From: Flavitalea plasmicola
Lineage (GTDB): Bacteria > Bacteroidota > Bacteroidia > Chitinophagales > Chitinophagaceae
Direction of reading: 5' to 3'
DNA: 64,000 nucleotides
Assembly (NCBI RefSeq): GCF_030546645.1
Contig: NZ_JAUOTO010000007.1
Coordinates: forward strand, 62,001 to 126,000
This document shows positions 43,506 through 59,434 of this stretch, piece by piece (position 1 is the first letter of the stretch; each line of letters opens with the position of its first letter). The position numbers were made by a program, and so were the translations under genes. The notes under the pieces are model-generated. The model saw only the letters and a list, made by a program, of their open reading frames with translations, was not told where the DNA came from and ran no database searches.

Positions 43506-45167
43506 TCAACGACCCGGGACTTCCCGCTTCATGAACACAAACCCATTTTTGCGGTATAGCTCCTTCAGCTGCGGGAACTTATAGTTTTGTTCCCTGTCCA
43601 CTTTCGTGACAAAATAAACAGGCTTGTCGATGGGGCCCGACACCAGCCATTGCTCATCATATGAATTGGGATTCGCAGGCTTTTCCTTCATCGTATAGAA
43701 CAGCTCGCCATAGCTTTTAAAGCCCAGGCAATGTACATAACAATCTTCTCCCTGACGGGCAATGAAGAAATCGATGTTAGCACCCTGCGAATAGCGCTCT
43801 ACCTTAGGAACAATAATAGCGGAAGCCAAAAAAACGACGATCGCCATGCCGACGAAGAGGGTCCGGGCGGCGTTATCGAACTGGCCTTGCCGTAATTTTC
43901 GTATGCCGACGATCAGCGAAACGACCAGCAGGACGCCCACCAGCCCTTCCCATCCCGACCAATGCACTTCCGCCTCCATATTGCCCCTGGCAAAAGTATC
44001 GTCGACATAGGGGGCCAGCCTTTTCACGTTCAGCCCGATGATCGCCACCCCCAGCAATAGCAGGGAGATCAGTCCCCCGAGGATTGCCGTCAGCACACCC
44101 ACGTATTTCTTGTAGACGGCCTCGCCCCGCTGCCACTTATAGATGGAATAAGCCGCCAGGAAAGTGACGGGGAACCACGCCAGCGACGAGTAATGTATGA
44201 TCCGGGACTGGACAATAGTGAACAGGATGGTCACCACCCAGAACAAAAAGATCATCCATTTCTTAAAGTCCTTGTCGTACCGGCTGCCGTATTGGTTCTT
44301 GAAAAAAGCAGGGATGGCCAGGATCGAAGCAGGGAAGCAGCCCACCAGCAATACGATATAGTGATACCCGAAGAATCCGGCCTGGTCCGCATCGTGCGTG
44401 GTGAACAGGCGGTATTGGTATTTTAGGAACTCATTGATGAACCAGGGCCCCCGCTTGGCCGTCTCATACCCATACCAGGTGGACAACACCAGGAAGGAGA
44501 TCACCAGGAAGAGCAGGGCATGCCCCCAGCTGAAATAGAATTTCCAACGGTTATAAATGAAGTAGACCCCCAGCACCAGGAGGAAGACCATCAGGGCCAC
44601 CTGCCCCTTCGTGAGCACAGCGAGTCCCATGAATACCCCTGACCAGCACACATAGAAATACAGCGGCCTGGTCAATCCCTCCTTGTCAAAGCCATTCCGC
44701 TTCCAATGGTATAATATGAAATAATAAAGTGAGAGAAAGGTAAAGAGGTTGAACCATGGATCGATGATGCCCGACTTGAAATACATATTGGGAAAGAGCG
44801 ATCCCCCATAGGCCAGGGCCCAAAGGACGCCAAACCGGGAGTCATAGATCCGCCTGCCGATGCAAAAGACCACAATGAGCGTGACGATGCCGCAAAGGGC
44901 ATTGGGAAAGCGCGAGGCGAACTCATTCACCCCAAAGATCTTCATGGCCGTGCTTTGCATCCAGAAGAACATCGGGGGCTTTTCCCAGAAAGGTTTGAAA
45001 TCCACATATACGCGGGAATAGTCGTCCAGCTTGATCATCTCCCTCGAGCATTCTGCGAAATTGATCTCGTCCCAGTCGAACAAATGCACGCGGCCCAGAA
45101 AAGGTATAAAAAACAGGGCGCCGAGAATGGCGATGAGTACGATAGTGGTGGTTTTGTTCAAACGCAT
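43506..45167 (-). CDS. GT-C glycosyltransferase (ArnT/PMT-like)
   Basis: 553 residues with a dozen TM helices. The catalytic first loop FDWDEINFAECSREMI and the KPFWEKPPMFFWMQ segment place it in the ArnT/PMT (GT39/GT83) superfamily, which transfers sugars from polyprenyl-phosphate donors on the periplasmic side. It is followed upstream by a GT2 that could make such a donor. The acceptor (lipid A, protein or other) is not evident. Confidence 0.9.
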   Translation of the reverse strand: MRLNKTTTIVLIAILGALFFIPFLGRVHLFDWDEINFAECSREMIKLDDYSRVYVDFKPFWEKPPMFFWMQSTAMKIFGVNEFASRFPNALCGIVTLIVVFCIGRRIYDSRFGVLWALAYGGSLFPNMYFKSGIIDPWFNLFTFLSLYYFILYHWKRNGFDKEGLTRPLYFYVCWSGVFMGLAVLTKGQVALMVFLLVLGVYFIYNRWKFYFSWGHALLFLVISFLVLSTWYGYETAKRGPWFINEFLKYQYRLFTTHDADQAGFFGYHYIVLLVGCFPASILAIPAFFKNQYGSRYDKDFKKWMIFLFWVVTILFTIVQSRIIHYSSLAWFPVTFLAAYSIYKWQRGEAVYKKYVGVLTAILGGLISLLLLGVAIIGLNVKRLAPYVDDTFARGNMEAEVHWSGWEGLVGVLLVVSLIVGIRKLRQGQFDNAARTLFVGMAIVVFLASAIIVPKVERYSQGANIDFFIARQGEDCYVHCLGFKSYGELFYTMKEKPANPNSYDEQWLVSGPIDKPVYFVTKVDREQNYKFPQLKELYRKNGFVFMKREVPGR

Positions 45168-45194
45168 TACCAGGCTTTTGGCCGCAAAGATATC

Positions 45195-45944
45195 CTATTT
45201 AAGAGGTTTATACATCTCTCTTTTCATGACGCCCCATTTACAGAGACGGTGGACGACAGACACCTGGAGGACACCCAGTCCATATACCACGCTGCGCCGG
45301 AAATTGATGCTGGAAGCCTCTTCAAAATAGCGGGTAGGGCAGGTGATCTCCGCGATCTCGTAGCCCAGGTAAATGATCTGGGAAAGCATCTGGTTGTCGA
45401 AGACAAAATCCTCCGAGTTGATGTCGTAGTTTATCCGCTGGAGGATCTCCCTGGAAAAAGCCCTGTAGCCCGTGTGGTATTCGGCCAGCTTTTGCTTGAG
45501 CATCACGTTCTCGAAGAACGTCAGCATCCTGTTGAAGATATATTTATACAGGGGCATGCCGCCATGCAAGGCGCCCTTGCCAAGGGTCCTGGACCCCAGC
45601 ACCACCTGGTAAACATTATTGGCAATGAGCCAGGCCATGGAAGGTATGAGCTTCGGCGTATACTGGTAGTCGGGATGGAGCATGATCACGATGTCCGCCC
45701 CCAGCTCCAGCGCCTTGTTATAGCAACTTTTCTGGTTGCCGCCATAACCCCTGTTCTTGTCATGCTTGATGATATGGGAAATACCCAGCTCGCGGGCCAC
45801 AGCCACCGTCCGGTCGCTGCTGTTGTCGTCGACCAGCACCACTTCGTCCACGATGTCAAAAGGGATTTCTCCATACGTCTTACGGAGGGTAAGCTCGGCA
45901 TTGTAAGCCGGCAGCACGATCACCAATTTTTTACCTTCAAGCAT
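45195..45944 (-). CDS. Family 2 glycosyltransferase (dolichyl-phosphate-mannose synthase-like)
   Basis: 249 residues with LVIVLPAYNAELTL, the nucleotide-binding VDDNSSDRT and an HPDYQY loop in place of the usual DxD, as in many polyprenyl-phosphate glycosyltransferases; no C-terminal TM pair. It is 27 bp upstream of the GT-C gene on the same strand, so it probably supplies the lipid-linked sugar for it. A CAAAAATA (minus-strand TATTTTTG, 45972-45979) is a candidate -7 element. Confidence 0.9.
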   Translation of the reverse strand: MLEGKKLVIVLPAYNAELTLRKTYGEIPFDIVDEVVLVDDNSSDRTVAVARELGISHIIKHDKNRGYGGNQKSCYNKALELGADIVIMLHPDYQYTPKLIPSMAWLIANNVYQVVLGSRTLGKGALHGGMPLYKYIFNRMLTFFENVMLKQKLAEYHTGYRAFSREILQRINYDINSEDFVFDNQMLSQIIYLGYEIAEITCPTRYFEEASSINFRRSVVYGLGVLQVSVVHRLCKWGVMKREMYKPLK

Positions 45945-45971
45945 AAGACGTTAAAATAGTTGAATTTTCTC

Positions 45972-45979
45972 CAAAAATA
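45972..45979 (-). promoter_or_regulatory. -7 element upstream of the GT2 gene
   Basis: TATTTTTG on the minus strand matches TAnnTTTG, 28 bp from the GT2 start codon. The -33 element is not clear (nearest TTG about 25 bp further). Confidence 0.35.
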
Positions 45980-46038
45980 GAGCGCAAACGTACGTATATC
46001 ATATCAATACAGAAAATTTTAGCTGTAATTCTGCAATC

Positions 46039-46662
46039 CTACTGCGGGGACGGGAATTTTTTGATAAAAAACCAATGGACGAGAAGGGCCGTCGTCACGC
46101 CGAGGAAGGACCCCATCAATACATCCGTCAGGAAATGCTGCCCCAGGTAGATCCTCGAATACCCTACCGCGACAGCCGTCAGCACGTAAAATACATTCGT
46201 CCTTTTATTCTTCTCGAAGATGGCCAGCATGGTCGCCAGCGAGAATACCGTAGTGGAATGCCCCGAGGGAAAGCTGCTATACCCGCGGCGGGTGATACCA
46301 TCGATGAAATAAACGTATTCCCTGTGATCGAAGACCTCCCAGGGACGGGGCATGGAAAAGACATTCTTCAGGATCTGCGCCAGCAATGCCGACAGCAGAA
46401 AGGCGGAGAGGAGCTGCCAGGCCTGGGACCAGCGGCGCAGCACCATCAGGAGAATAACCACCGCGCCCGCGAAAATGCCATCCCCCAGATAGGTAAAACC
46501 AATAAAAAAATAGTCTAATGGGCTTCGATGAAAAGGGTTCAGGAATAAGAAAGTGGCCATTTTCCCTTTCATCAGAAGGAATATCAGCCCTACCAGGAAA
46601 AAAAAACCATAACAGAGAAGAAAATTGCGATTGACTGCAATGATTGATCTCAGTCTATTCAT
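46039..46662 (-). CDS. PAP2 family phosphatase
   Basis: 207 residues with six TM helices and the three-part PAP2 signature: K-x6-RP (KNVFSMPRPW), PSGH (SFPSGHSTTVFS) and SR-x5-H (YSRIYLGQHFLTD). The enzyme removes phosphate from lipid phosphates such as undecaprenyl pyrophosphate or phosphatidate, at the outer face of the inner membrane. It lies 12 bp downstream of the FAD-oxidase gene, so it may belong to the end of the phosphonate transcript. Confidence 0.92.
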   Translation of the reverse strand: MNRLRSIIAVNRNFLLCYGFFFLVGLIFLLMKGKMATFLFLNPFHRSPLDYFFIGFTYLGDGIFAGAVVILLMVLRRWSQAWQLLSAFLLSALLAQILKNVFSMPRPWEVFDHREYVYFIDGITRRGYSSFPSGHSTTVFSLATMLAIFEKNKRTNVFYVLTAVAVGYSRIYLGQHFLTDVLMGSFLGVTTALLVHWFFIKKFPSPQ

Positions 46663-46674
46663 CCGGCAAAACTA

Positions 46675-47808
46675 CTACAAACCTTCCACTAATTCCTCGG
46701 CAAGACCAAAAGAGAGGGTCATGCCCGCTCCTCCCAGCCCGTTGATCACATATACATAAGGCTCCGGAGAAAAGAACAGATCGGACGCTCCGTCCGTCAG
46801 CTTCGCATATATGCCATTCCAGGTCTGGGTGACACGCCAGTCCTTCACCTGGACGAACGTACGCAGATAGTCCAGGATCATCCGGTTGATAAGCTCCTTA
46901 TCAAAGGGATCGTGCGTGAGGCCGTATTCGTGCGAATCGCCTACCGTCAGCTCGCCATTGCCATTCTGAGCGACCATCACGTGAATGCCCCGATCCAGGT
47001 AATCCGGCAGCTCTTCCGTATAACGTTGCTTCAACCCTGTCAGGGATGCGGCGGCCTTAAAGCTATTATAATGGATGAGAGAAAGTCCTCCGCAAAGCGC
47101 AGGCCCTATACGCCATTCCGCAGGCTGCGGTGCGAGGCGCAGCATCTGCAGCTTGCATTTGGTGACTGGCTGCCGTGAAAAATGCTCGGGATACAGCGTT
47201 TCAAAGTCCGCGCCATTGCATATGAAGATCAGGTCCGCCTCATGTTCTTCGTCATTGCCGATGTATACCGCCTGATCCGAAATATACGAAACACATTTCC
47301 CCCAATGGAACGCTACTTTCAGCTGCCCGGATAGCCAGTCCGGCAAGGCCGATACAGCCTCCCGGGGATCCACGATCAATTCATCCCTGCTATAAAGGCC
47401 GCCCAGCAGCCCTTCGGGAACCACCGCGGTCGATGCGCCGGCCACGCCCGCCCTGTCCAGCAATTGCACCGGTCTTCCCTCTTTACGGAAGATCTCCGCC
47501 AGCTCCTGCAAGACCAGCCATTCATCAGCGTGGTAAGCAACATGAAGGCTTCCTGCCGGCTCAGCCCAAAAATCCGCCTTTGGAGCAAGCTCTTTCCATA
47601 TCTCCCGGCTGCGGACCGCCCTGTCATACATCTTCCCCGCCGGCTGACCAATAGGCCAGATCATGCCAAAATTGCGGATGGATGCGCCCACCGCCTTATC
47701 GCTCCTTTCGAAGACCTTTACGGAAAATCCCCTCAACGCAAGGGCCCTGGCGGTTGCCAGCCCTACGATGCCCGCTCCGATGACAATGGCTGATCGAGAT
47801 GATTGCAT
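46675..47808 (-). CDS. FAD-dependent oxidase of the phosphonate-associated TIGR03364 type
   Basis: 377 residues of the DAO fold. The FAD-binding IVIGAGIVGLATARAL is at 8-23 and the hallmark GASIRNFGMIWPIGQP follows at about 41-56. The family TIGR03364 is known for its frequent association with phosphonatase-like HAD proteins (TIGR03351) and is thought to deaminate an aminophosphonate, perhaps hydroxy-aminoethylphosphonate. Here that HAD gene lies two genes upstream, which supports the assignment. Role and substrate are inferred from family and context. Confidence 0.85.
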   Translation of the reverse strand: MQSSRSAIVIGAGIVGLATARALALRGFSVKVFERSDKAVGASIRNFGMIWPIGQPAGKMYDRAVRSREIWKELAPKADFWAEPAGSLHVAYHADEWLVLQELAEIFRKEGRPVQLLDRAGVAGASTAVVPEGLLGGLYSRDELIVDPREAVSALPDWLSGQLKVAFHWGKCVSYISDQAVYIGNDEEHEADLIFICNGADFETLYPEHFSRQPVTKCKLQMLRLAPQPAEWRIGPALCGGLSLIHYNSFKAAASLTGLKQRYTEELPDYLDRGIHVMVAQNGNGELTVGDSHEYGLTHDPFDKELINRMILDYLRTFVQVKDWRVTQTWNGIYAKLTDGASDLFFSPEPYVYVINGLGGAGMTLSFGLAEELVEGL

Positions 47809-47826
47809 AAATTACCTATTTCTTTT

Positions 47827-47870
47827 TACACCGGTGATGCTTATTCCGAAACTTAACCATCCCCGGTGTA
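47827..47870. repeat. Inverted repeat between the MFS and oxidase genes
   Basis: Arms TACACCGG (47827-47834) and CCGGTGTA (47863-47870) separated by 28 bp, in an 83-bp gap. Could be a regulatory site or a stem that modulates read-through to the oxidase gene; not recognised as any known element. Confidence 0.35.
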
Positions 47871-47891
47871 CATCTTATAATTGACCTTCGG

Positions 47892-49232
47892 TCAGCGGAT
47901 CTGTGATCCGCTCCGGTAGATCCTGTCATATAGCACAGCCCCCCATAGCACCAGCACTATGCCAACGGTAGCCGCTACGTAGAAGATCGCCGTGAAAAAG
48001 TCCACCCATGTATAACGTATCTGCACAAATTCTTTTAACAGGAGGACGACCACCGTACCCAGGTAGCCGAACGCATCGGCGAAATAAATGAGAAAGCCCA
48101 CATTTCCTGGTACTTTATAAGCGGCCAGCATTCTTTCAAAATAAAAACAGTTGTAAGGTATATACCCCAGATAAAGCCCCGCGGAAGCGACCAGTATCCA
48201 GTTCACCGGGGAAAGGATATGCAAATGGTAGCCCGCTGTTGCCACCGCCGCCAGCACGAAGCCGCCGATGATAATGACATTATTCAGCTGGAAAGCCTTG
48301 TAATTATTTTTTATTAAATAAAATCCACCGATGACGGCCAGTACGATCAGGGACACGATGGTGCTGGTCTGCGCAAATACGGCCGCATGCTGCAATGACC
48401 CCGTCTCCGTCCACAGCTCGTTGATGAAATCTTCGCAGAAATCCCTCAGGATCGTCAACATTACATAAGCGATGATAACAGGAATAAGCGCAACGCCGAA
48501 TTGCCGGAGGAACGCTTTCCGCTGCTGTTTTTCCATAGGCAGCCGGATGGTACGTTGCGCAACATCGGCTGCCGTGGGGGGCGGCGTCTGGTTCAGCAAC
48601 CAGGTCCCCAGCAACAGCGGCCCCAGGAAAATAGCGGCCGCCGCGAAGGGCATCCACTGCTCATTGACGCCAGCATAAAGCATCAACGCCTTCCCTACGG
48701 TCTTGGCCAGCCCGCTGGCAAAAATAAAGCTGGTGGCCAGGATGGCGCCCATCAGCTCCGTCACTTTTCGACCTTCCAGGAAGCCGAACACCAGGCCCCA
48801 GATCAGTCCAAGGGGCAGCCCGTTGATGAATAGAAAAATGAAATTATAGGGCATCGGCACCCACCCGAAAAGCAGCAGCGCCGCCCAGGAGATCATCATC
48901 AGCCGGATAATATAACCCGCACGGCGGGCAGGTTGCATCATGGCGATAAAACGGATGCCATAGAACTTGCTGCACATATAGCCCAGCACCTGCGAGATCA
49001 CCAGCACCACCTTGTAAGAAACGCCGAACAGCCGGACGCCGTCATACGATGCGGCGGTGAATGGCTTGCGGAAACCATACATGCTGGAATAGACCACGAA
49101 AGAGGAAAAAGACACATATAATATGAATACCCAGGCAGGACTGGCCGACAGCCGGCTCCGGAGCGTCGGACGATCACCGGCGGCGATAGCCACGGGCTCG
49201 GTTGATATGACGGCCATCTCAGGCATGCTCAA
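47892..49232 (-). CDS. DUF5690-type MFS transporter
   Basis: 446 residues with about 12 TM helices (for example FILYVSFSSFVVYSSMYGFRK near the start). MFS members of the glycerol-3-phosphate/organophosphate antiporter style carry the same YGFRKPF motif, and this protein is probably an inner membrane carrier of organophosphonates or organophosphates. The start overlaps the end of the HAD gene by 14 bp, so it is part of the same operon. Substrate is inferred. Confidence 0.85.
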   Translation of the reverse strand: MSMPEMAVISTEPVAIAAGDRPTLRSRLSASPAWVFILYVSFSSFVVYSSMYGFRKPFTAASYDGVRLFGVSYKVVLVISQVLGYMCSKFYGIRFIAMMQPARRAGYIIRLMMISWAALLLFGWVPMPYNFIFLFINGLPLGLIWGLVFGFLEGRKVTELMGAILATSFIFASGLAKTVGKALMLYAGVNEQWMPFAAAAIFLGPLLLGTWLLNQTPPPTAADVAQRTIRLPMEKQQRKAFLRQFGVALIPVIIAYVMLTILRDFCEDFINELWTETGSLQHAAVFAQTSTIVSLIVLAVIGGFYLIKNNYKAFQLNNVIIIGGFVLAAVATAGYHLHILSPVNWILVASAGLYLGYIPYNCFYFERMLAAYKVPGNVGFLIYFADAFGYLGTVVVLLLKEFVQIRYTWVDFFTAIFYVAATVGIVLVLWGAVLYDRIYRSGSQIR

Positions 49233-49911
49233 TAATGGGTATTAGCTCTTCCAGGCTGTCGATGATATGGTCGGGATGATATTGCTCCAGCTGGACGCGG
49301 GTATACGCGCCGGTGGTGACGCTGACCACTATTCCGCAGCCAGCATTGCGGCCTTCTTCCACGTCCACTTCCGTATCCCCGATCTTCAATACCCGGGCGG
49401 GAGAAGTTATACTAAGCCGCTGCATCAATTGATGGATCATGTACGGAAAAGGTCGCCCTTCAGGTACCTCGTCGCTGCAGATCACCTGGTCGATAACACC
49501 GTGCCCATTGTCCCAGTGCAGCCGCTGCAGGATAGCATCCGTGATCGTACGGGTGAACCCGGTGTTCAACGCTATTTTCATCCCCTTCCGCTTCAGGTTC
49601 GAAAACACTTCCTCCGCATGAGGCAAAGGTCGCAGCTCCTTTTCCGTGCGGTAAAATGAGAGCATGCCGGCAATAAACCTGTCGTGGATCCTGTCTATCA
49701 GCGCCCGGTCCTCTTTACGGTGCGGCGCATATTTTTCCAGCAGTCGCCGGATCGCATCGATCTTGCGGAAGCCCATTACTTTCTTTACCTCTTCCTTCGG
49801 CACGGTAAGGCCGAACGCCTGAAAAGCCTCCATGAACGAATGGGCTACATCGCCCTTGTCATGTACGGTCGTCCCCGCTATGTCAAAAACCACCAGTTGA
49901 ATATTGCTCAT
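49219..49911 (-). CDS. Phosphonatase-like HAD hydrolase (TIGR03351 type)
   Basis: 230 residues. It shows the phosphonatase deviations from typical HAD proteins: nucleophile motif DIAGTT (Asp10) instead of DxDGT, Lys50 in the cap (VMGFRKID) at the place of the Schiff-base Lys of PhnX, and Arg instead of the motif-III Lys (PEGRPFPYM). GDTEVDVEEG is motif IV. PhnX cleaves phosphonoacetaldehyde; the like-family, which lacks PhnW neighbours and occurs with FAD oxidases, may act on hydroxyphosphonoacetaldehyde or phosphonoacetaldehyde. No PhnW transaminase is present here. Confidence 0.87.
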   Translation of the reverse strand: MSNIQLVVFDIAGTTVHDKGDVAHSFMEAFQAFGLTVPKEEVKKVMGFRKIDAIRRLLEKYAPHRKEDRALIDRIHDRFIAGMLSFYRTEKELRPLPHAEEVFSNLKRKGMKIALNTGFTRTITDAILQRLHWDNGHGVIDQVICSDEVPEGRPFPYMIHQLMQRLSITSPARVLKIGDTEVDVEEGRNAGCGIVVSVTTGAYTRVQLEQYHPDHIIDSLEELIPIIEHA

Positions 49912-49917
49912 AAAAGA

Positions 49918-50490
49918 TCATATAGTAGTTAGGTGTCGGAACATCATGTCTTTATAGTGTTCGAGATCGGGCAAAGCCTTGCCTTCGATCTTCGCCTGCT
50001 CGTCCCATTTACGCATTTTGACGATCATTCCGAACAACGGGTATTGCTCGAACGCCGTCGCTTCCTCCTCCGTCATAGGGCCGCCCTGGTATTCCAGCGT
50101 CTTCCTGCTCGCATCCGACAGCTGTGTATAATAGCCAGGTTCCCGCACCGTCAGGTACCTTTTGGCCTCCACATGGGATTCCACCAGGCGAATGACCTTT
50201 TTCGAAAAACCTTTCCCCCGCAGGAACTCCGCCCCGATGGCCTCATGGTCTTTTATACCGAACCCATCCATTCCATTCTCCCCCGTCGCCGCTTCGCTGA
50301 TATGACCAATATCATGCAGAAAGGCCGCCAATATGACCTCTTCGTCATATCCCTCCTCTTCCGCCAGCTGGGCCGCCTGCACCATATGCTCCAGCTGGGA
50401 GACCTTTTCACCGGCATATTCTTCGCCGCCGTAACTTTCATACATGCCGAAGATCTCATCGGTGATCTGCCGTGCTTTTTCACTTTCCAT
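49918..50490 (-). CDS. PhnZ-like HD-domain oxygenase
   Basis: 190 residues. The mixed-valent di-iron site of PhnZ can be placed: Tyr25 and Glu28 (YAGEKVSQ), His35 (LEHMVQAA), His59-Asp60 (FLHDIGH), His63, His82 (DHEAIGAE), His106 (ESHVEAKR) and Asp163 (RKWDEQAK). The spacing is one residue off PhnZ in most positions. PhnZ oxidises (R)-1-hydroxy-2-aminoethylphosphonate to glycine and phosphate, so this is a second C-P cleaving enzyme next to the HAD hydrolase. No PhnY-like gene is adjacent. Confidence 0.85.
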   Translation of the reverse strand: MESEKARQITDEIFGMYESYGGEEYAGEKVSQLEHMVQAAQLAEEEGYDEEVILAAFLHDIGHISEAATGENGMDGFGIKDHEAIGAEFLRGKGFSKKVIRLVESHVEAKRYLTVREPGYYTQLSDASRKTLEYQGGPMTEEEATAFEQYPLFGMIVKMRKWDEQAKIEGKALPDLEHYKDMMFRHLTTI

Positions 50491-50504
50491 AACAAATCTT
50501 TTAA

Positions 50505-51596
50505 TTATTTAAACACCGTTGGAACAGGCTCCGCCGAACCATGGTCCGGCCGGAATTGAAAACCCAGCAGCGCAGCCATGGTGGGCGCCCATTGCTTCTG
50601 GTACAGCTGCGTGTGGGTGCTGACCTCCCCTGCCGGCATCGTATCGGGCCCCATCACAGCCATCCAGATCTCACCGGACTCTTTTATTTTCTCACCATGG
50701 TCCCGCCAGGTGTCTTTCATCTTATCTCCCCTGCCATGGTCGCAGGTGACGATCAACGTGGTCTTATCTTTGTATTGAGGCATGGACTGCAGCGTGTTCC
50801 ATAAGTCCGCGATCATGGCATCCTCCGCATGGGCCTGGCTGAGATACTGGTCATACAGGCCCGCATGCGCAAAGTCGTCCGTCTCGTCGAAAGCAATGTA
50901 GAGCACCTTGGGCTGGTAGGTCTTCAGGTATTCTTTCCCGGCAAAATAAGTGATCACGTCAGGTCGCACTTCCAGCGGCTGCGGAGCAAGGAACTGCATT
51001 TCATTCACCACCTGCAAGCCCTTGTCAGGAAAATGGAGGCTATCCACTCCCGAATTTACATAAAGTCCGCTACGCCCCGTGTTAAGAATATAGGGAAATA
51101 CATCCCAGGTAGTGAAGGCGGCAACTTTACCGGCGAATCCCTTCTGCCGGCTGATAAACTCCAGCACATTGGTATTTCCATTCAGCACTTTGTCGTTGGA
51201 ATTGACAGCCGTGTCAGGATATCCTGTAAAGATCTCGTTATAGCCGGGATAGGAGAACTGGTAAGGATTAGCGACATTCACCAGGTTGCCGATGGTCCTG
51301 TTGCCATAGAGCTGCCCCTTCTCCTTTACCGTGGTCCAGAGAAAGGGGAAAAGCTTCTTCCTCCTTTCGCGAATATCCGGGCTGTAAAACATTTTATTCA
51401 GACCGTCCTTGTTCCTCGTAAATTTTTGATTGCCTGCCAGTGCGGTATCGATCCCTCCGAACACTTCCTGCCAGCGCATGCCGTCCAGGGTGAAGATAAC
51501 AAGGTTCTCGGTACGGTGGGATACGACTTGTGCGGCGCCGGGAAAGGCGCCGCACAGGATCAGCATAGAGATTACAAATAACAATTTTACCCGCAT
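50505..51596 (-). CDS. Exported alkaline-phosphatase-superfamily hydrolase
   Basis: 363 residues from ATG 51596 (MRVKLLFVIS), with a signal peptide (ends PGAAQ); a GTG 24 bp upstream would overlap the susD-like gene and is less likely. Metal ligands of the superfamily: FTLDGMRWQEVFGG near the N-terminus, AFDETDDFAHAG, and CDHGRGDK. The nucleophile region is SYPGYNEIFTGY. It should be a phosphomonoesterase, phosphodiesterase or phosphonate-type hydrolase in the periplasm, encoded 8 bp after the SusD-like gene. Confidence 0.88.
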   Translation of the reverse strand: MRVKLLFVISMLILCGAFPGAAQVVSHRTENLVIFTLDGMRWQEVFGGIDTALAGNQKFTRNKDGLNKMFYSPDIRERRKKLFPFLWTTVKEKGQLYGNRTIGNLVNVANPYQFSYPGYNEIFTGYPDTAVNSNDKVLNGNTNVLEFISRQKGFAGKVAAFTTWDVFPYILNTGRSGLYVNSGVDSLHFPDKGLQVVNEMQFLAPQPLEVRPDVITYFAGKEYLKTYQPKVLYIAFDETDDFAHAGLYDQYLSQAHAEDAMIADLWNTLQSMPQYKDKTTLIVTCDHGRGDKMKDTWRDHGEKIKESGEIWMAVMGPDTMPAGEVSTHTQLYQKQWAPTMAALLGFQFRPDHGSAEPVPTVFK

Positions 51597-51604
51597 AGTT
51601 AAAT

Positions 51605-53194
51605 TTATTTGATCAGCCACATGGCCAGGTTGATATCATCCTGTCCGTTGTACTGACGCTGGACAGCAGCCTTATAATTATCTCCATTGGAGGTGATCTC
51701 ATTGGTTGGATACTGGAAGCGCAGGGGTATCTTACCCCCGTTGCCCGTGCCCGAACCTACGCTGAAAGCGGGAATGCCCGTCCTGCGCCATTGATAATAA
51801 GCCTGCAAGCCCGAATTGCGCGCATAGGCCAGGTATTTTTGAGTAAGGATCTGGGATAGCCCGTCGTTGGTATTTCCCTTGTATTGGACTGCAGCCTGGC
51901 TGAGATAATCGCTGAAGGCGAAGTGGACTGTGTACGTTACGCTGCCAGTCCCGCCTGCATTGCGAAATACCACCTGGTTGTCGCCGTCCTTGATGCCATA
52001 AAATCCAAACATGGCCTTGATGCCGTTGGCATACCATGCCGATGCATCACCAGTCGCCCATCCACGGTTGATACCCTCTGCAATGCTAAAACACACTTCT
52101 GCATAGCTGAGGATCAGCGTCGGCTCCGCCGTATACGTAGCATAAAAATGGTTGTAATTATACAGGGAGATCTGTCCCGCACCGGACAAGGTGGAGAGCA
52201 CGCTCAGGTCGGCTCCCAGCTGGGCGCCGACAAAAGACCCATAGTCGGTGTCGGCAAGTCCAAGTCCGCGGGCGGGCTCGGCCAGTACCATAGCGCGGAT
52301 GTCATTTAATTGCCCCAGCGTGGTCAACAGGGTGGCCCCCAGGTTGAGACGACCGGCATTGTTCCCATAATTGCCGGGATTGTCCGGATAATAATTATAG
52401 GTGCTGTTATAGACATACTGCAGGTTGTCGTCGTTGCTGTTGAAAACGGGATATTTTGCAGGAGTGCCCACAATGTCTGCAAACTGCTGTTTGATGTTAA
52501 GATCGGCGGCGTCGTCAGCTCGTTTGCTTAGCTCGATCAACACGCGCAGCCTGTAGCTGTTAACCACCTTCTGCCACTCGATGAGCGCGTTGCGTCCGGT
52601 GGCATCCGCATATTTGGATGTTTCCTGGTAATACCAATCCCCCGAGAACTCCACAAACCCGTTGGCGATGAAGTCCGCAAGCATGGTATTGGCGCTATCC
52701 AGCCATAAGAGCGACTGTTTGAAAATATCCTTTTGGCTGTCGTATTTCGGAGTGGGACTGGCGGTGCCTTTCAATGCCTCGCTCATGGGCAGATCCCCGA
52801 CTTTTTCCGTCATGTTGACAAAGAACCAGGCGCGAAGGAAAAACCCCAGGGCATGGTAAGGGTTCTTATCCGTTCCCACCGCTTTTTTTGCTTCGGCTTC
52901 CATGGAGATCACATTGTTCAGTGCGCTATAGTTGAGGGTGGCGCTGCCTGTCCAGTATTTGTTATCGCCATAGTAAGTATAATTCGAGGCTATGAACTGG
53001 TCCGCCTTGTCTTCGTAATCACCGGGAAAAACGACCAGGCTGTTCAGGATGGAACGAAGGACCAGACCGGGAGGTACCGTTTGCGGCAGGTTCTTGTTCT
53101 GAGAATATTCCGCGAATTTTTTAGAGCACCCCATGGTCAGCAGTAAGACCGGGAGGGCCAGGACAAACGTGGATCGTATGATGTTGCGTTGCAT
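51605..53194 (-). CDS. SusD/RagB-like surface lipoprotein
   Basis: 529 residues. The N-terminus has a lipobox (LLTMGC, Cys at about 23), the rest is the helical SusD/RagB-like substrate-binding fold. It lies 11 bp downstream of the SusC-like gene, as usual for such pairs, and forms the outer lid of the transporter. Position before phosphatase and phosphonate genes suggests binding of an organophosphorus compound rather than a glycan; this is inference. Confidence 0.92.
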   Translation of the reverse strand: MQRNIIRSTFVLALPVLLLTMGCSKKFAEYSQNKNLPQTVPPGLVLRSILNSLVVFPGDYEDKADQFIASNYTYYGDNKYWTGSATLNYSALNNVISMEAEAKKAVGTDKNPYHALGFFLRAWFFVNMTEKVGDLPMSEALKGTASPTPKYDSQKDIFKQSLLWLDSANTMLADFIANGFVEFSGDWYYQETSKYADATGRNALIEWQKVVNSYRLRVLIELSKRADDAADLNIKQQFADIVGTPAKYPVFNSNDDNLQYVYNSTYNYYPDNPGNYGNNAGRLNLGATLLTTLGQLNDIRAMVLAEPARGLGLADTDYGSFVGAQLGADLSVLSTLSGAGQISLYNYNHFYATYTAEPTLILSYAEVCFSIAEGINRGWATGDASAWYANGIKAMFGFYGIKDGDNQVVFRNAGGTGSVTYTVHFAFSDYLSQAAVQYKGNTNDGLSQILTQKYLAYARNSGLQAYYQWRRTGIPAFSVGSGTGNGGKIPLRFQYPTNEITSNGDNYKAAVQRQYNGQDDINLAMWLIK

Positions 53195-53205
53195 AGTGAC
53201 TGATT

Positions 53206-56200
53206 TTAAAAGACTACATTTAAGTTGATGCCATAGCTACGGGTAGTGGGCGACTGGAGACCATGTTCCCGGGAAATCACATTAAACTGATCACGGCCGG
53301 GAAATTGGTCCACATCCAGGTCTTTGAACGCACTAGGGAAAAAGTATAGCAGGTTCCTGCCCACCAGGGAAACATCTACGCGGTTAATAAAGGACCTATG
53401 CAACCATTTTGCGGGCAGTGAGTAGGTAATGACCACTTCACGGAGTTTCGCATAGGTCTTGTTCACCATCGTATGTTGGGGATCGTTATAGAAGCTGCTG
53501 ACATAATCCTGTACCCAGACCGTGGCAGAATCATTCTGTCTGAACGTAAGACTTTTGCTGTTACTGATGACCCCTGTTGCCGGGTCGTACTGGATCTGGC
53601 CCGATCCCCCCGAGCCCGCCACCTGCACACCGTCGCCGCCGAGGATAGGGCGGCCGTTAGCATCTCTTGCCTCCTTATTATGTGTGGGATTCTTGGGATC
53701 CGGACCGAAATAACCTGCATCAGCCATGTGCTGGGATTCATAAAGCCTTGCCTGTCCGATCTTGCCAGTTGCGGTATTCAGTCCGCGGCCGCCTTCCGTG
53801 AGTTTGCGCAGCACATAGTCCTGCAGCCGTCCGCCTACCATGCCGTCGAACTGGAAACTAAAGCTGAAGGATCCATAGGAGAACTTATTGTTGATACCCC
53901 AGGCCCAGTCAGGATCGGCATGTCCCAAATATTGGGCTTTGGGCAGATAAATGGGGAACCCGGACTCATCATGGATCACTTTCCCATCGGGGGTCATTGC
54001 TTCATAATTACCGAACAGCTTGTCTACACGATCTCCAACATGATAGGGATAACCAGTCCCGTTGTTCATCTCTTTAGCGCCACCGGCAAAGGCAGAAAAG
54101 ACTTCCTTGTACGTTGACCAGTTGACCAGAACATCCCAACGGAAGCTGTTGCTCAGTTGTATGGGCGTGCCTGTAACAGAAAGTTCTGCGCCCGTCCTTT
54201 TCGTAGTAAGCCCATTGGTGACGATATAGCTGATGCCGCTGGTTTCCGATACATATTGATTGGAGATCTTGGGGCCATCCTTGTATTGGAACCAGGTACC
54301 GCTGAAGCCCAGGCGATTGTGGAGAAAACGCGCATCCAGGCCGAACTCATAGTTGGTACGGGTGCTGGGTTTGATGCCCGGGCTGATGGTATAGTTAGGC
54401 GCATCGGCGCCGGAAACGTTGTTATACACCGGATAGGTCGTATAAGGCGGTGCAGAAAGTGAGTAAGTGGGCCCGTCATATGGCGTATAATATCCTGTTC
54501 CGTAGCCTACAGGGCTGGCTATACCCAGGCTCTGAAAAGCGGTGCCCGCATAAGCTGTAGTACCTCCATCCTTCACAGTGGCAAAGCTGCCGCGCAGTTT
54601 GAGGAAGGTAATGGCGGATGGCAGCGTGATATAGTCCGACAACGGCGTGCTCAGAGACACGGAAGGATAAAAATAAGCGTTCTTCCCCACCGGCAGGGCG
54701 CTGGTCTTGTCTAACCGTCCCGTAGTGGACACCGTGAAATAATTCTTATAGGTGAGGTCCACCGAATAGTAGGCGCTTAAGAGCAAAAGATTGGAATTAT
54801 ACGAATAAGAACGCACCGACTTGAGGCTGTTGGCGAAAGTATAAACATTAGGCACCACCAGCTGGTCCGTGCTGGTATAGCTGGACTCGTATTTCATGTT
54901 GCGGGCTGAGCCACCGCCAAAGGCGCTGATGGAGATGCCGCTGTTGTTGATATTCTCCTTGTTCAGGCGCAGGAGCAGCTCGGTATTGTTCTCCCACAGG
55001 TCGCGCCGGTCCTCCCGGTAATTACCGTGGTTGTGCTCGTCTCCATACGGGTGCGCGGAAAATGGCAGCTTTTCATTACGCAGCACATTATAAGTGGTCA
55101 TATTGCTCCGTAGCATGATATCCAGGCCCTTGTTGATCTTATAGGTAAACGCGGCCCAGCCGTAAAGGTCGTTCTTATAATGACCCCGCAGCCATTCATA
55201 GCTGCTGAACCAGGGATTGTGGTAGCGCTTGTATTCCGCGAAATTGGATTGAATGCCTGCCTTGCCCGGTTTCCAATAATTGCGGATATTGGGGTCCTGG
55301 ACATTCCAGTCAGCGCCCGTCCAGATATCGATATTGTAGATGATGCTGTTGGGACCGTAGGCGACATCGGGAATATTCGGGGTGAACTGACGGTTGTAAT
55401 TGATATTGGCCTCGACCTTGAACCTATCGGAAACATTGTAGCTGCCCAGGACGTTCAGGTTCAGCGTATTCAGACTGGTGTTTGGGGTAATGCCACGCTG
55501 GTAGCCATTGGACACGGACATCCGTACCGTGGACTTGTCGGTCACCGAAGAGAAGTTGATATTATTCGTAGTTAACAGACCGGCCTGAACGAAATTTTGA
55601 AGATTGTCCTTGCCGCGCGCTACCCAGGGAGTGGGTTTGATATTACCCGTAAATGTTTTTACATTAGGACCGAAGCTGGTGGTATAAGTGGCATTGGGGT
55701 CATAGGCACCATCGTATTGCGGCAACAGTCTGCCATCCAGGCGGGGCCCCCATACATCATAGTCTTTGTCGTTCCTGCCGGAACCGGTGCCATTAGCCAG
55801 GTAGTCGCCGAAGGCATATTGTTGATTGTCACCTCCGCCGTACTCATTCTGTACACGGGGAATGGCGATAAAACCTTTGTTCATCTGCGTGCTGGAATTG
55901 ATCTCCACCGTCCAGCCTTTGCCATTCTTTTTTCCGCGTTTGGTTGAAATGAGAATAGCCCCGTTAATGCCCCGGCTGCCATATAGCGCTGCGGCAGTGG
56001 GCCCTTTCAATACTGAATAGGTTTCGATGTCATCAGGGCTGATATTCCAGGTATCCGAATTGATGGGAATGCCGTCTACAACATAGAAATTCAGCGGCGA
56101 TCCCCGCAGCAGGACAGTGGGGGAGGCCAGCATTTCCTGGCTGATGCCCACGTTGAGACCCGCCACTTTGCCCGTTAAGCCATTAATGGGGTTGGGCTCC

Positions 56201-56610
56201 CTGGCTTTCAGAAGATCGTCGCCCTTCACTTCCTGGACCGAGTAGCCGATGCGCTTGGCCTCTTTACGGATGCCGAGGGCGGTGACTACCACCTCGTTCA
56301 GGTTCTTTGTATCTGCCTTAACGGTAATAGTAAGCGTACTTTCATCACCCAGCACTATCTCTTTCGACGTGATCCCCACTCCTGAGATGAGGAGCACATC
56401 CGCGTTACGCGCCTTGATGGTAAACCGGCCGTCTACATCTGTGGAGGTCCCGGACTTAGATCCCCTGATCAATACCGATGCCCCGGCCACTGGGCTTTGG
56501 TCCGTCTCCGATAACACCCGCCCGCTAACGGGTCGCTGCGCATGAACGAGCAGGGGCAGACAAAATAGCAATAACCAGACCCCTTGCAAAAGGGTAGATC
56601 TTTTTCTCAT
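53206..56610 (-). CDS. SusC/RagA-like TonB-dependent transporter
   Basis: 1134 residues. Signal peptide, CarboxypepD-regulatory-like domain (SGRVLSETDQSPVAGASVLI), TonB box (NEVVVTALG), plug with NFYVVDGIPINS and LKGPTAAALYGSRGINGAIL, then barrel, ending in NLNVVF. It is the outer membrane pore of the SusCD pair and the first gene of the phosphonate operon. The 203-bp gap upstream has only a weak -7 candidate (TAATTTCG, complement of 56656-56663). Confidence 0.94.
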   Translation of the reverse strand: MRKRSTLLQGVWLLLFCLPLLVHAQRPVSGRVLSETDQSPVAGASVLIRGSKSGTSTDVDGRFTIKARNADVLLISGVGITSKEIVLGDESTLTITVKADTKNLNEVVVTALGIRKEAKRIGYSVQEVKGDDLLKAREPNPINGLTGKVAGLNVGISQEMLASPTVLLRGSPLNFYVVDGIPINSDTWNISPDDIETYSVLKGPTAAALYGSRGINGAILISTKRGKKNGKGWTVEINSSTQMNKGFIAIPRVQNEYGGGDNQQYAFGDYLANGTGSGRNDKDYDVWGPRLDGRLLPQYDGAYDPNATYTTSFGPNVKTFTGNIKPTPWVARGKDNLQNFVQAGLLTTNNINFSSVTDKSTVRMSVSNGYQRGITPNTSLNTLNLNVLGSYNVSDRFKVEANINYNRQFTPNIPDVAYGPNSIIYNIDIWTGADWNVQDPNIRNYWKPGKAGIQSNFAEYKRYHNPWFSSYEWLRGHYKNDLYGWAAFTYKINKGLDIMLRSNMTTYNVLRNEKLPFSAHPYGDEHNHGNYREDRRDLWENNTELLLRLNKENINNSGISISAFGGGSARNMKYESSYTSTDQLVVPNVYTFANSLKSVRSYSYNSNLLLLSAYYSVDLTYKNYFTVSTTGRLDKTSALPVGKNAYFYPSVSLSTPLSDYITLPSAITFLKLRGSFATVKDGGTTAYAGTAFQSLGIASPVGYGTGYYTPYDGPTYSLSAPPYTTYPVYNNVSGADAPNYTISPGIKPSTRTNYEFGLDARFLHNRLGFSGTWFQYKDGPKISNQYVSETSGISYIVTNGLTTKRTGAELSVTGTPIQLSNSFRWDVLVNWSTYKEVFSAFAGGAKEMNNGTGYPYHVGDRVDKLFGNYEAMTPDGKVIHDESGFPIYLPKAQYLGHADPDWAWGINNKFSYGSFSFSFQFDGMVGGRLQDYVLRKLTEGGRGLNTATGKIGQARLYESQHMADAGYFGPDPKNPTHNKEARDANGRPILGGDGVQVAGSGGSGQIQYDPATGVISNSKSLTFRQNDSATVWVQDYVSSFYNDPQHTMVNKTYAKLREVVITYSLPAKWLHRSFINRVDVSLVGRNLLYFFPSAFKDLDVDQFPGRDQFNVISREHGLQSPTTRSYGINLNVVF

Positions 56611-56813
56611 ATTACAGTAGTTTTTAGTTGCACTAAATGATGGATCATTGTGCGGCGAAATTATCCGGGCAGTATGAAGGGAAGGTTAGGCCGTCTTTAA
56701 GAAAATGTTAATAGTTTACAAATACTAAACCAATGTTAAGTATTTATAAAATCCTTCCAACGGTATGGCGGGCAAATAATAATTGATTATTTTCTTGATA
56801 AGACTGCGCAGGA

Positions 56814-57449: not shown

Positions 57450-59306
57450 TTAAAGTCCGAATGCCTGTAATATCCTCGTGAAGACGGCGGTATTCTCATA
57501 CACACCCCTGAAAAGTCCCGACCGGGGGCCATAAGCGAATACAGGCACGGGAATGGCCGTATGGTCATTGGTCGAGAATTGCCCTCCCACATATCCTCTC
57601 CGGTAATCCCCGTCCATCAGGGTAAGTCCGCCTGTCTCATGATCAGCCGTCACGATCACCAGCGTCCCTCCATCCCTGTCCGCAAAACGCAAAGCCTCTC
57701 CCACCGTCTTATCGAAATCCATCACTTCCATCGCCACATACGGCAGGTCGTTTGCATGGCCGCCATAATCCACCTGGGCCCCTTCCGTCATGATAAAAAA
57801 TCCCGGCTTATTGCGGGACAGCAGATCGAGGGTTTTGTTAAATGCCTTTTGCAGCCAGTCACCCCTGCCATCCAGCATGGACTTGCCCGCCCTTGCCTCC
57901 ACGACGATCCACTTTTTATCCGTTCCGGCGCGAACACTATCTATCGCAGGAACAATGGTGTATTCCGGTTGCAACACCCGTAACAGGCTGTCTGTCACAG
58001 CCGCTTTTTTGCCTTCATTCAGGATAGCCACATTGTTCAGGCTTTCATCGCCCGAACCCATCAGCACGCTGATGGGCGCGTTCTTCAGATCCCGGAGGAC
58101 TGCGGTGGCATTCCCCCGCTCTGACTGATGGGCATAGAAGTCGGCCGGCGTAGCATCGGCGATATCCCCGCAGGTCACCAGGCCTGTCCGGATCTTCCGC
58201 TTTTCCAGGATCACGGGCAGCAGGGGCAGGGCCTTGCCGGTATGATCCACGCCGACAAAACGGTTGTTCGTCTTTTCGCCGGAAGAGAACGCAGTGGAGC
58301 CCGGAGCCGAATCCGTCACATAGCTGTCATAGCTGCTGGTCTTCGACAGCCCGATGTTCCGCATGGTAAATATATTCAGTGCGGCCTTGTTGGCGGTGTA
58401 ACCCGCATACAGTTGCGCCAGGCCCGTACCATCACCGATGAGAAGAATGACATTCTTCACAGGCTTGTCCACTCCATCCGTCTTATACGTCGGTTGATAA
58501 GGCTGGTAAGCCCCCCCTCCCGTATAGGATGTCTTCGGCAGCCGGCGTAAGAAATCGGACAGCGCGGCAATATGATCCGTATTTATATAATCCACCTGCA
58601 GATGCATGAACTGGTACCAGGCATTGATAAAATCCGGCGCATCCCAAAATCGGACCGTCTTTTTCTCTTGATGGGCTTTCTTCACCGCCTCCTGCAGCCT
58701 GGCCCATTCCTTTGCAGGGATGATGCCCTTCCCGTTCCATTCGGAATAACTTTTAAAATCATCGCTGAGCATAACCACCTTATCCAAAGCTTCCTTACCG
58801 TATTGCTCCGACAATACGCCGTCGAACCAGATCCATGAAGGATAGGACGGCCACAGGAAGGAGGCAGGCCGGTTGCCCGTTATGACAAATTTGATGGCGG
58901 GATTGCCGGTCAGCTCCGGGTATTTCCTCAGCACTTCGATCAGCCGCGCAAGCGTACGGATGGAATCCGTCTTGATATCGATCAGCACCTGCAGCCCGGC
59001 CGTTGCATTCTGAAAAGGTCTGCCGCCATGCTGACGGACACAGGCCAGCAGCGGATCGAGATAATAGGTCTCCAGCGTCCTTTGCAACGCCAGCTCTTTT
59101 TCCGAATGGGCCACCACCAGCGAATCCTGGCGCAAGAATATATCCGCCTCGATAGAGCCGAACCCTTCGTTGTAGGCCAGCCGGAATGGTACTTTCTGCT
59201 CGTAATCGTTATGGGAATGGGCATTGCTGCAAGTATACGCAACGGGCTGCGCCTGCAGGCTGAAAGTCATCAGCGCCAGCAGGACGATGAGGGATCCTGA
59301 GTTCAT
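57450..59306 (-). CDS. Exported fusion of GDPD/PI-PLC-like domain and alkaline phosphatase
   Basis: 618 residues from ATG 59306 (MNSGSLIVLL), which begins a good signal peptide; the frame continues 19 codons upstream with no coding look. Residues 20-270 resemble the PI-PLC/GDPD TIM-barrel (CSNAHSHNDYEQK with the catalytic-type His pair, SIEADIFLRQ, LQVLIDIKTD). Residues 285-618 are a PhoA-type alkaline phosphatase: ILLIGDGTG, nucleophile Ser in VTDSAPGSTAFS, TEGAQVDYGGHAND, TADHETGG and TNDHTAIPV. One exported enzyme could thus cleave a phosphodiester and then remove the phosphate. It ends 66 bp before the XRE-cupin start, possibly cotranscribed with it. Confidence 0.88.
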   Translation of the reverse strand: MNSGSLIVLLALMTFSLQAQPVAYTCSNAHSHNDYEQKVPFRLAYNEGFGSIEADIFLRQDSLVVAHSEKELALQRTLETYYLDPLLACVRQHGGRPFQNATAGLQVLIDIKTDSIRTLARLIEVLRKYPELTGNPAIKFVITGNRPASFLWPSYPSWIWFDGVLSEQYGKEALDKVVMLSDDFKSYSEWNGKGIIPAKEWARLQEAVKKAHQEKKTVRFWDAPDFINAWYQFMHLQVDYINTDHIAALSDFLRRLPKTSYTGGGAYQPYQPTYKTDGVDKPVKNVILLIGDGTGLAQLYAGYTANKAALNIFTMRNIGLSKTSSYDSYVTDSAPGSTAFSSGEKTNNRFVGVDHTGKALPLLPVILEKRKIRTGLVTCGDIADATPADFYAHQSERGNATAVLRDLKNAPISVLMGSGDESLNNVAILNEGKKAAVTDSLLRVLQPEYTIVPAIDSVRAGTDKKWIVVEARAGKSMLDGRGDWLQKAFNKTLDLLSRNKPGFFIMTEGAQVDYGGHANDLPYVAMEVMDFDKTVGEALRFADRDGGTLVIVTADHETGGLTLMDGDYRRGYVGGQFSTNDHTAIPVPVFAYGPRSGLFRGVYENTAVFTRILQAFGL

Positions 59307-59434
59307 TTCGCAAGTATATACAAAAATTCCCTTCCCGCCTCTGTTAATATTCCGTTCACACAAAACTTACAATTACTTAACAACCAGGTAAAAATGAGGT
59401 AATACTTAGTATGGACCTTTGGAAAACCACAATA

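Follow-up and report, generated by a model that had tools for sequence, protein, structure and literature searches.

We analysed a 64,000-nt stretch of Flavitalea plasmicola DNA (the window; all positions are positions within it), which comes from a genome of 8.73 Mb assembled in 19 contigs (C17:62001-126000). Seven co-directional genes lie on its minus strand at 46675-56610, in the order SusC, SusD, AlkP-type hydrolase, HD oxygenase, HAD hydrolase, major facilitator superfamily (MFS) carrier and FAD oxidase (Table 1). A first-pass annotation of this DNA had described seven such genes on one strand with short gaps or overlaps. Order and strand were correct, and with the likely ATG starts the distances in gene order are 11, 8, 14, 6 and -8 bp for the first five gaps; the last one, however, is 83 bp and not short. 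For the AlkP-type gene the likely start is the ATG at 51596, an alternative GTG at 51620 overlapping SusD. The seven genes were also listed correctly, but the regulator and the candidate operator upstream had been missed. Our results indicate that this locus is real, conserved and modular, and that it is probably an aminophosphonate utilisation operon.

Table 1. Features of the aminophosphonate locus and its flanks (positions in the window)
Feature	Position	Strand	Support or remark
SusC-like TonB-dependent outer-membrane transporter, 1134 aa	53206..56610	-	TIGR04056 418 bits, cut-off 368
SusD-like surface lipoprotein, 529 aa	51605..53194	-	PF12771 192 bits, PF12741 123 bits
Exported AlkP-superfamily hydrolase	50505..51596	-	PF01663 29.3 bits, cut-off 23
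PhnZ-like HD-domain di-iron oxygenase, 190 aa	49918..50490	-	TIGR03276 222.6 bits, cut-off 214.6
Phosphonatase-like HAD hydrolase, 230 aa	49219..49911	-	TIGR03351 206.5 bits, below cut-off 218.9
DUF5690 MFS transporter, predicted inner-membrane aminophosphonate carrier	47892..49226	-	PF18943 497 bits
PbfD-type FAD oxidase, 377 aa	46675..47808	-	TIGR03364 432 bits, cut-off 285
XRE-cupin transcriptional regulator, 189 aa	56814..57383	-	HTH_3 + Cupin_2
Candidate operator GTTTAGTATTTGTAAAC	56714..56730	-	103 bp upstream of SusC start
Second, diverged candidate operator copy GTTAAGTATTTATAAAA	56735..56751	+	2 mismatches to IUPAC pattern
Exported GDPD_2-type/alkaline phosphatase fusion	57450..59363	-	PF13653 + PF00245
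PAP2 phosphatase	46039..46662	-	PF01569

The closest named relatives of the FAD protein are from Chitinophagaceae, including Puia dinghuensis (80% identity), and its top identity, 86%, is to a protein from a Chitinophagaceae metagenome-assembled genome (both among the best 80 of 283 relatives). PbfD enzymes, including PbfD1, which is annotated as TIGR03364, turn N-methyl-aminoethylphosphonate (M1AEP) and, less well and to varying extents, aminoethylphosphonate (AEP) into phosphonoacetaldehyde; PbfD2 together with PhnX makes up a PhnW-free pathway, and PbfD homologues were found in the FCB group (PMC10590968; this and the other papers are cited from excerpts of their text). By its sequence, the window FAD enzyme belongs to this phosphonoacetaldehyde-producing family, whose activity has been shown for other members. 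Since TIGR03364 family members make phosphonoacetaldehyde from M1AEP and AEP (PMC10590968), the FAD and HAD enzymes would together represent the published PhnW-free route.

The HAD protein aligned to PhnX (1rql) with an E value of 9e-25; its closest model is TIGR03351, and it scored 146.5 bits with TIGR01422, the model of true PhnX (cut-off 220). As the first-pass annotation had read them, Lys50 and an Arg are in place: all 65 aligned HADs, whether encoded inside or outside the locus, have K50 and R153, while 64 have the Asp D10 and 61 the Ala A12. From the residue roles in PhnX, with the positions given by the PhnX alignment, we take D10, K50 and R153 to be the Asp nucleophile, the Schiff-base Lys and the substrate Arg. 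The HD protein matched both PhnZ (4mlm, E 3.5e-47) and TmpB (6npa, E 1.3e-34), and with the TmpB model NF049941 it scored 165.8 bits, below the cut-off of 300. In support of its earlier description as PhnZ-like with all iron ligands, every one of 49 aligned sequences, window included, shares the ligands H35, H59, D60, H82, H106 and D163 as well as Y25 and E28 of the YxxE motif (ORFs, open reading frames, covering less than 60% of the window protein were dropped). This ligand and YxxE motif, and its role, were described for PhnZ-type HD enzymes in PMC8177086.

The earlier statement that PhnW and carbon-phosphorus (C-P) lyase genes are lacking holds for the whole 8.7-Mb genome, in which the best PhnW score is 42 bits (cut-off 401) and PhnJ has no match. 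Neither PhnA (best 32 bits, cut-off 408) nor a phosphonate-binding protein (best 21 bits, cut-off 112) was found over cut-off genome-wide. We also rejected the idea that the strain is a phosphonate producer, since no phosphoenolpyruvate mutase in the genome is over cut-off (best 65.8 bits against 320). No PhnY* gene is linked to the window locus. The genome encodes nine PhyH-family proteins, none over a curated NCBIfam cut-off; the best score, 53.6 bits, is to the PhnY-type methylphosphonate hydroxylase model (cut-off 500), and there was no NCBIfam match to an AEP-specific PhnY* model. One of the nine, an Fe/2-oxoglutarate PhyH-family protein with a weak match to ectoine hydroxylase, is encoded at 18302-19240 of the window, and some 31 kb separate its gene from that of HD.

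Conservation was analysed in a sample of 195 genomes of the family, here called Chitinophagaceae after the relatives of the FAD protein. TIGR03364 is over cut-off in 66 of them, and up to 20 kb was fetched around the 65 genes other than the window's own; 49 of these loci, of at least 18 kb, are called full-length here. Gene presence was scored by tblastn with the window proteins at 50 bits or more, distant SusC homologues being counted, because initial gene calling had hidden the HD gene behind longer antisense ORFs. The MFS gene is present in 63 of the 65 relative loci, followed by HAD (52), HD (45), SusD (44), AlkP-type (43) and SusC (41); among the full-length loci 37 have a SusC homologue. 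FAD, MFS, HAD and HD genes occur within about 20 kb in 27/49 full-length loci. In 25 of these 27, SusC and SusD are present too, and in 23 the AlkP-type gene as well. As to the conservation of the whole locus, proposed as a check by the first-pass annotation, all seven genes follow each other as in the window, on a single strand, in 20 of the 49.

At the genome level we used thresholds of 285 bits for FAD, 130 for HD and 120 for HAD, the HD and HAD values being set by us near gaps in the scores. Of the 195 genomes, 63 have both FAD and HAD, 3 have FAD without HAD, 4 have HAD without FAD and 125 lack both, confirming that the two families co-occur (HAD in 63/66 FAD genomes). Since this holds and the exact order recurs in 20/49 loci, the seven-gene set is not a chance assembly. 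For FAD and HD the corresponding numbers are 49, 17, 4 and 125. Note that the four genomes with HD and no FAD comprise two pathway swaps (G064 and G070, see below), one with a FAD fragment at a contig end (G048) and one that is 63% complete (G183).

Within the full-length loci, 27 have both HD and HAD, 6 only HD, 12 only HAD and 4 neither. Over-cut-off matches to TIGR03351 number 11 in the 195 genomes, and just 3 of these are inside a fetched FAD locus. Five of the HD-only loci (L041, L047, L054, L055 and L064) are arranged as in the window, and in every case the genome encodes a TIGR03351 protein elsewhere, over cut-off with 219-254 bits. The possibility that HD-only loci are broken pathways was weighed: an over-cut-off HAD lies elsewhere in 5/6 of these genomes, and the sixth, G008, is without HAD. 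Three HAD-only loci (L046, L048 and L068) are otherwise in the window's order; HD is elsewhere in the genome of L048 (G055) and absent from the other two genomes. As for the loci with neither gene, the genome of L078 (G194) has a HAD adjoining PhnW (488 bits), those of L051 and L101 (G114 and G145) have HADs elsewhere (180 and 236 bits), and that of L090 (G123) has none. HAD is therefore a near-constant companion of FAD genome-wide and HD an optional one, which fits two substrates.

At the phylum level, TIGR03364 was matched at E 1e-60 in 23/296 genomes, 22 of them over cut-off; five are family members, including the window's own genome. The 18 loci from outside the family were inspected, one of which (L152) is below cut-off. 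In L136 and L138, SusCD, AlkP-type and HD genes are divergent from the MFS-FAD pair, and L138 is without HAD. In the more distant Bacteroidota loci L145 and L148, homologues of PhnA and phosphonoacetaldehyde dehydrogenase come immediately before the FAD gene, and a PhnW homologue lies ahead of PhnA, separated from it by two unidentified ORFs.

The strongest evidence for the cargo came from the two pathway swaps, loci L120 and L121 of genomes G064 and G070, which have the HD gene and no TIGR03364 protein over cut-off. Their SusC proteins are 69-71% and their SusD proteins 66-68% identical to those of the window, compared with 40% and 38% for a locus of the window's own genus (L063), and the HD and DUF5690 genes lie alongside. 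What accompanies them is PhnW (496 and 485 bits, cut-off 401), the TIGR03250 phosphonoacetaldehyde dehydrogenase (666 and 665 bits, cut-off 636) and PhnA (492 and 496 bits, cut-off 408), together with a different FAD enzyme in both loci. Closely related outer-membrane pairs are thus combined with two distinct pathways that lead from AEP to phosphate and, because the related SusCD sits with PhnW, the dehydrogenase and PhnA, the cargo would be an AEP-type phosphonate.

The AlkP-type protein alone found no match among solved structures by sequence search, and its profile gave only marginal ones, to nucleotide pyrophosphatase/phosphodiesterase (NPP), sulfatase and phosphoglycerate mutase. Its AlphaFold model, with a predicted local distance difference test (pLDDT) score of 90, matched the AlkP fold with E values of about 1e-9 and TM-scores of about 0.5; the Foldseek neighbours are sulfatases, YejM, LtaS and NPP, placing it in the AlkP superfamily and in no single subgroup. 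Residues S123, D46, D248, H252, D294 and H295 are invariant in 24/24 aligned sequences. Relatives of other exported enzymes occur within the fetched stretches: proteins of 800-930 aa that combine a beta-propeller with a PF04185 phosphoesterase domain in 11 loci, metallo-beta-lactamase-like proteins in 7 and GDPD proteins in 4, the domains being those of checked representatives. Release of a headgroup from an ester would fit these exported enzymes. In L044, L059, L075 and L083 the 800-930-aa proteins are encoded between SusD and HD (beta-propeller and PF04185 were found in the two tested); two of these loci, L059 and L083, have an additional TonB receptor gene after them.

For the DUF5690 protein, the sequence profile had no match in the PDB. 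Its AlphaFold model (pLDDT 89) gave the glucose-6-phosphate carrier G6PT/SLC37A4 as the four best PDB fold matches; other MFS proteins followed closely behind, with E. coli GlpT at rank 12. R55, K56, K89, R230, R238 and R263 are invariant in 26/26 aligned sequences, and the Arg-Lys pair of transmembrane helix (TM) 1 and an Arg of TM7 may resemble those of GlpT. The model suggests that DUF5690 may be the inner-membrane carrier of the aminophosphonate.

An XRE-cupin homologue is present in 28/49 full-length relative loci. The palindromic candidate operator GTTTAGTATTTGTAAAC is the sole match with at most one mismatch in its own 8.7-Mb genome, a reversed control giving 0. The second copy, GTTAAGTATTTATAAAA, lies 4 bp from it in the opposite orientation, and the window's two pattern matches (at most 3 mismatches) were equalled in 2/100 shuffles. 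We then compared 38 other loci having a susC ORF of at least 1000 aa, over 320 bp around the susC start (L120 and L121 included, the other L110-L125 loci excluded). A site with at most 3 mismatches was present upstream of susC in 14/20 loci with the regulator and 0/18 without it (Fisher p 4e-6; the value is indicative only and limits the case for control, since the loci are related, kinship was ignored and the pattern had been derived from the site in the window itself). With at most 4 mismatches the numbers were 17/20 and 2/18, and with at most 5, 19/20 and 6/18; the regulator-bearing loci beyond the three-mismatch limit are L040, L042, L043, L052, L054 and L073. From this co-occurrence, the XRE-cupin protein may control the operon at the palindrome, and its cupin sensor suggests control by the substrate.

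Taken together, we think it probable that the locus serves aminophosphonate utilisation as an operon under the control of its substrate. SusC and SusD would bind aminophosphonates, or short esters or conjugates of them, and import them across the outer membrane. The exported AlkP-fold enzyme, replaced or joined elsewhere by phospholipase-C-like, GDPD and metallo-beta-lactamase-like proteins, would free the headgroup, which the DUF5690 carrier would bring into the cytoplasm. There the FAD enzyme, like the characterised members of its family, would oxidise M1AEP and AEP to phosphonoacetaldehyde, and the HAD, which has the required residues, would cleave this through the Schiff-base lysine into acetaldehyde and phosphate. 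The HD di-iron oxygenase, its own residues also in place, would act on natural (R)-1-hydroxy-AEP (HAEP), giving glycine and phosphate without PhnY*. The XRE-cupin protein may sense the substrate or a product and act at the palindrome upstream of susC. Most likely HD and HAD serve two substrates (HAEP, and AEP or M1AEP), because each of them is absent from some relative loci. Of the complete import-to-phosphate pathway put forward by the first-pass annotation, the aminophosphonate locus, the two C-P-cleaving enzymes and SusCD are supported, but the pathway needs revision, most likely into two branches, FAD+HAD and HD, with two substrates. The form taken up may be a free aminophosphonate, a phosphonolipid or a phosphonoglycan.

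A more specific version, which we hold to be possible but somewhat short of an even chance, is a dedicated aminophosphonate importer: SusCD would capture lipids or glycans that bear phosphonates, soil amoebae being one conceivable source since hydroxy-AEP is obtained from their polysaccharides, and periplasmic trimming, the DUF5690 carrier, the two C-P-cleaving branches and an XRE-cupin sensor at the 17-bp palindrome would follow, independently of the phosphate-starvation system. Soil amoeba polysaccharides also hold AEP.

Several observations weigh against the operon reading or parts of it. The HAD is below the curated cut-offs of TIGR03351 and TIGR01422 alike. The activity of the TIGR03364 member PbfD1 on AEP is 18-fold worse than on M1AEP (PMC10590968); the window FAD enzyme may be either PbfD1-like or PbfD2-like, so AEP may be a poor substrate for it. 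HAD is missing from 3/66 FAD genomes (G008, G123 and G142), and HD from 16/49 full-length loci. The HD-only locus L094, of G008, has SusCD, HD and a divergent FAD gene (33% identity), and its genome has no HAD match anywhere. A distant PhnY* may be among the nine PhyH proteins. Finally, homology of the SusCD pair to AEP-linked loci is no proof that SusCD carries AEP.

A first alternative is one shared substrate, the FAD enzyme deaminating hydroxy-AEP and HAD and HD being alternative breakers of the resulting hydroxy-aldehyde phosphonate. The original description of TIGR03364 guessed hydroxy-AEP deamination (quoted in PMC10590968), HD and HAD are each dispensable while FAD stays (6/49 loci with HD only, 12/49 with HAD only), and G008 has HD and no HAD anywhere. 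However, the characterised PbfD enzymes take M1AEP and AEP to phosphonoacetaldehyde (PMC10590968), five of the six genomes with an HD-only locus keep an over-cut-off HAD elsewhere, and HD is also found with PhnW, the dehydrogenase and PhnA where TIGR03364 is absent; we give this scheme little chance. Another possibility could be general organophosphate scavenging, in which SusCD and the exported phosphoesterases import ordinary phosphodiesters and the phosphonate enzymes are passengers. This we consider unlikely: the tight linkage and co-occurrence of FAD, HAD and HD with SusCD, and their in-place replacement by another AEP pathway in L120 and L121, speak against it, even though the AlkP-type, phospholipase-C-like, GDPD and GDPD-alkaline phosphatase enzymes are typical of phosphodiester scavenging and the Flavobacterium PUSI clusters were interpreted in this way (PMC8115612).

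An oxidative AEP route is the last alternative: an unlinked PhyH oxygenase would hydroxylate AEP, HD would complete the PhnY*/PhnZ pathway, and FAD and HAD would be used for M1AEP only. The presence of nine PhyH proteins in the genome and the preference of PbfD enzymes for M1AEP over AEP (Table 2 of PMC10590968) are in line with it. But none of the nine is over a curated cut-off, the best score being far from it, and the neighbours of HD in the window are the AlkP-type and HAD genes. In addition, when the ORFs of L039-L103, L110-L125 and the window stretch were scanned, with limited sensitivity, using a profile of the nine proteins, none was convincing as a PhyH gene: there were seven matches, none above 15.7 bits, and six or more of these are the cupin regulators. 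We regard this route as very unlikely, and the aminophosphonate operon with its two branches remains our preferred reading.

How does this operon relate to known systems? With the PbfD2-PhnX pathway of Mariniblastus fucicola (PMC10590968) it shares a PbfD-type FAD oxidase and a phosphonatase-type HAD without PhnW; it differs in adding SusCD, the exported AlkP-type enzyme, the DUF5690 carrier, HD and the XRE-cupin regulator, and in a HAD that is below both phosphonatase cut-offs. As in the phnWX and phnWAY clusters with a stand-alone phnZ (PMC8154272), a PhnZ homologue stands beside a hydrolytic AEP route, although here the hydrolytic arm is FAD+HAD and not PhnW+PhnX or PhnW+PhnY+PhnA. In the excerpts of that paper, phnZ homologues lie beside 15/1,186 phnWX and 24/75 phnWAY clusters, none of them with pbfA, and were interpreted as a separate (R)-HAEP route. 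HD without a linked PhnY* fits the hydroxy-AEP side branch proposed for such clusters. From the PhnY*/PhnZ oxidative pathway the locus has the HD oxygenase with all metal ligands and YxxE, but no linked PhnY* gene.

The Flavobacterium PUS/PusCD loci (PMC8115612) also have a SusCD-like pair with phosphatases and phosphodiesterases, and the window likewise links such a pair to phosphoesterases and to a predicted carrier of the inner membrane. PusCD, however, is defined by induction on phosphate depletion, and the window locus has its own XRE-cupin regulator. TonB-driven uptake, considered unusual for phosphonates in the first-pass annotation, does have its SusCD pair here, but for Flavobacterium there is earlier mention of SusCD clusters that include enzymes of phosphonate degradation, of which the excerpts give no itemised list (PMC8115612). 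No SusCD phosphonate locus of such make-up appears in the excerpts of PMC8316502, PMC8812569 and PMC10574752, and keyword searches of open-licence papers gave no title or abstract on such a gene set in Chitinophagaceae. The catabolic enzymes, and the class of SusCD-linked phosphorus acquisition, were thus already known or foreseen in print; new here are the gene combination, the in-place pathway swap, the suggested carrier and the regulator-operator pair.

On its flanks, the GDPD_2/alkaline phosphatase fusion lies upstream of SusC, like the XRE-cupin gene, on the same strand as the seven genes. It matches the alkaline phosphatase structure 2w5v (E 4e-66), and Flavobacterium PhoA1 also has PF13653 (PMC8115612). 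Present in just 2/65 relative loci, it is a possible upstream member of the locus. The PAP2 gene lies 12 bp downstream of the FAD gene, is present in 7/65 relative loci and is probably not core to the locus. It is followed on the same strand by GT2-like and PMT/ArnT-like genes, assigned by eye (43506-46662 for the three), and several PAP2 genes in relative loci precede a gene for 503-519 aa, which in the one tested (L080) is PMT_2.

Other arrangements were seen among the relatives. In L100, L102 and L103, ORFs of 979, 428-433 and 1219-1221 aa precede a TIGR03364 gene that is divergent (27-29% identity), with HAD, DUF5690 and XRE-cupin genes on the opposite strand; in L100 the first of these ORFs encodes a TonB receptor, while the PF01663 enzyme and the LamG/fn3 protein encoded by the other two have type IX secretion system (T9SS) sorting tails. 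In L110, L111, L116 and L117 a phosphonatase-like HAD occurs outside the FAD locus with an XRE-cupin gene and an MFS gene of the GlpT/PgtP kind (in L110, 179 bits with TIGR00881, below cut-off; the other three have the same N-terminal sequence), which suggests another type of phosphonate locus.

If our reading is correct, aminophosphonates may be a source of phosphorus, nitrogen and carbon for about a third of the sampled family genomes (66/195), and a survey that looks for phnW, phnJ or ABC transporters would overlook the route they use. DUF5690 and the XRE-cupin regulator gain functions that can be tested, and loci in which PhnW, the dehydrogenase and PhnA take the place of FAD+HAD beside closely related SusCD pairs offer a natural comparison.

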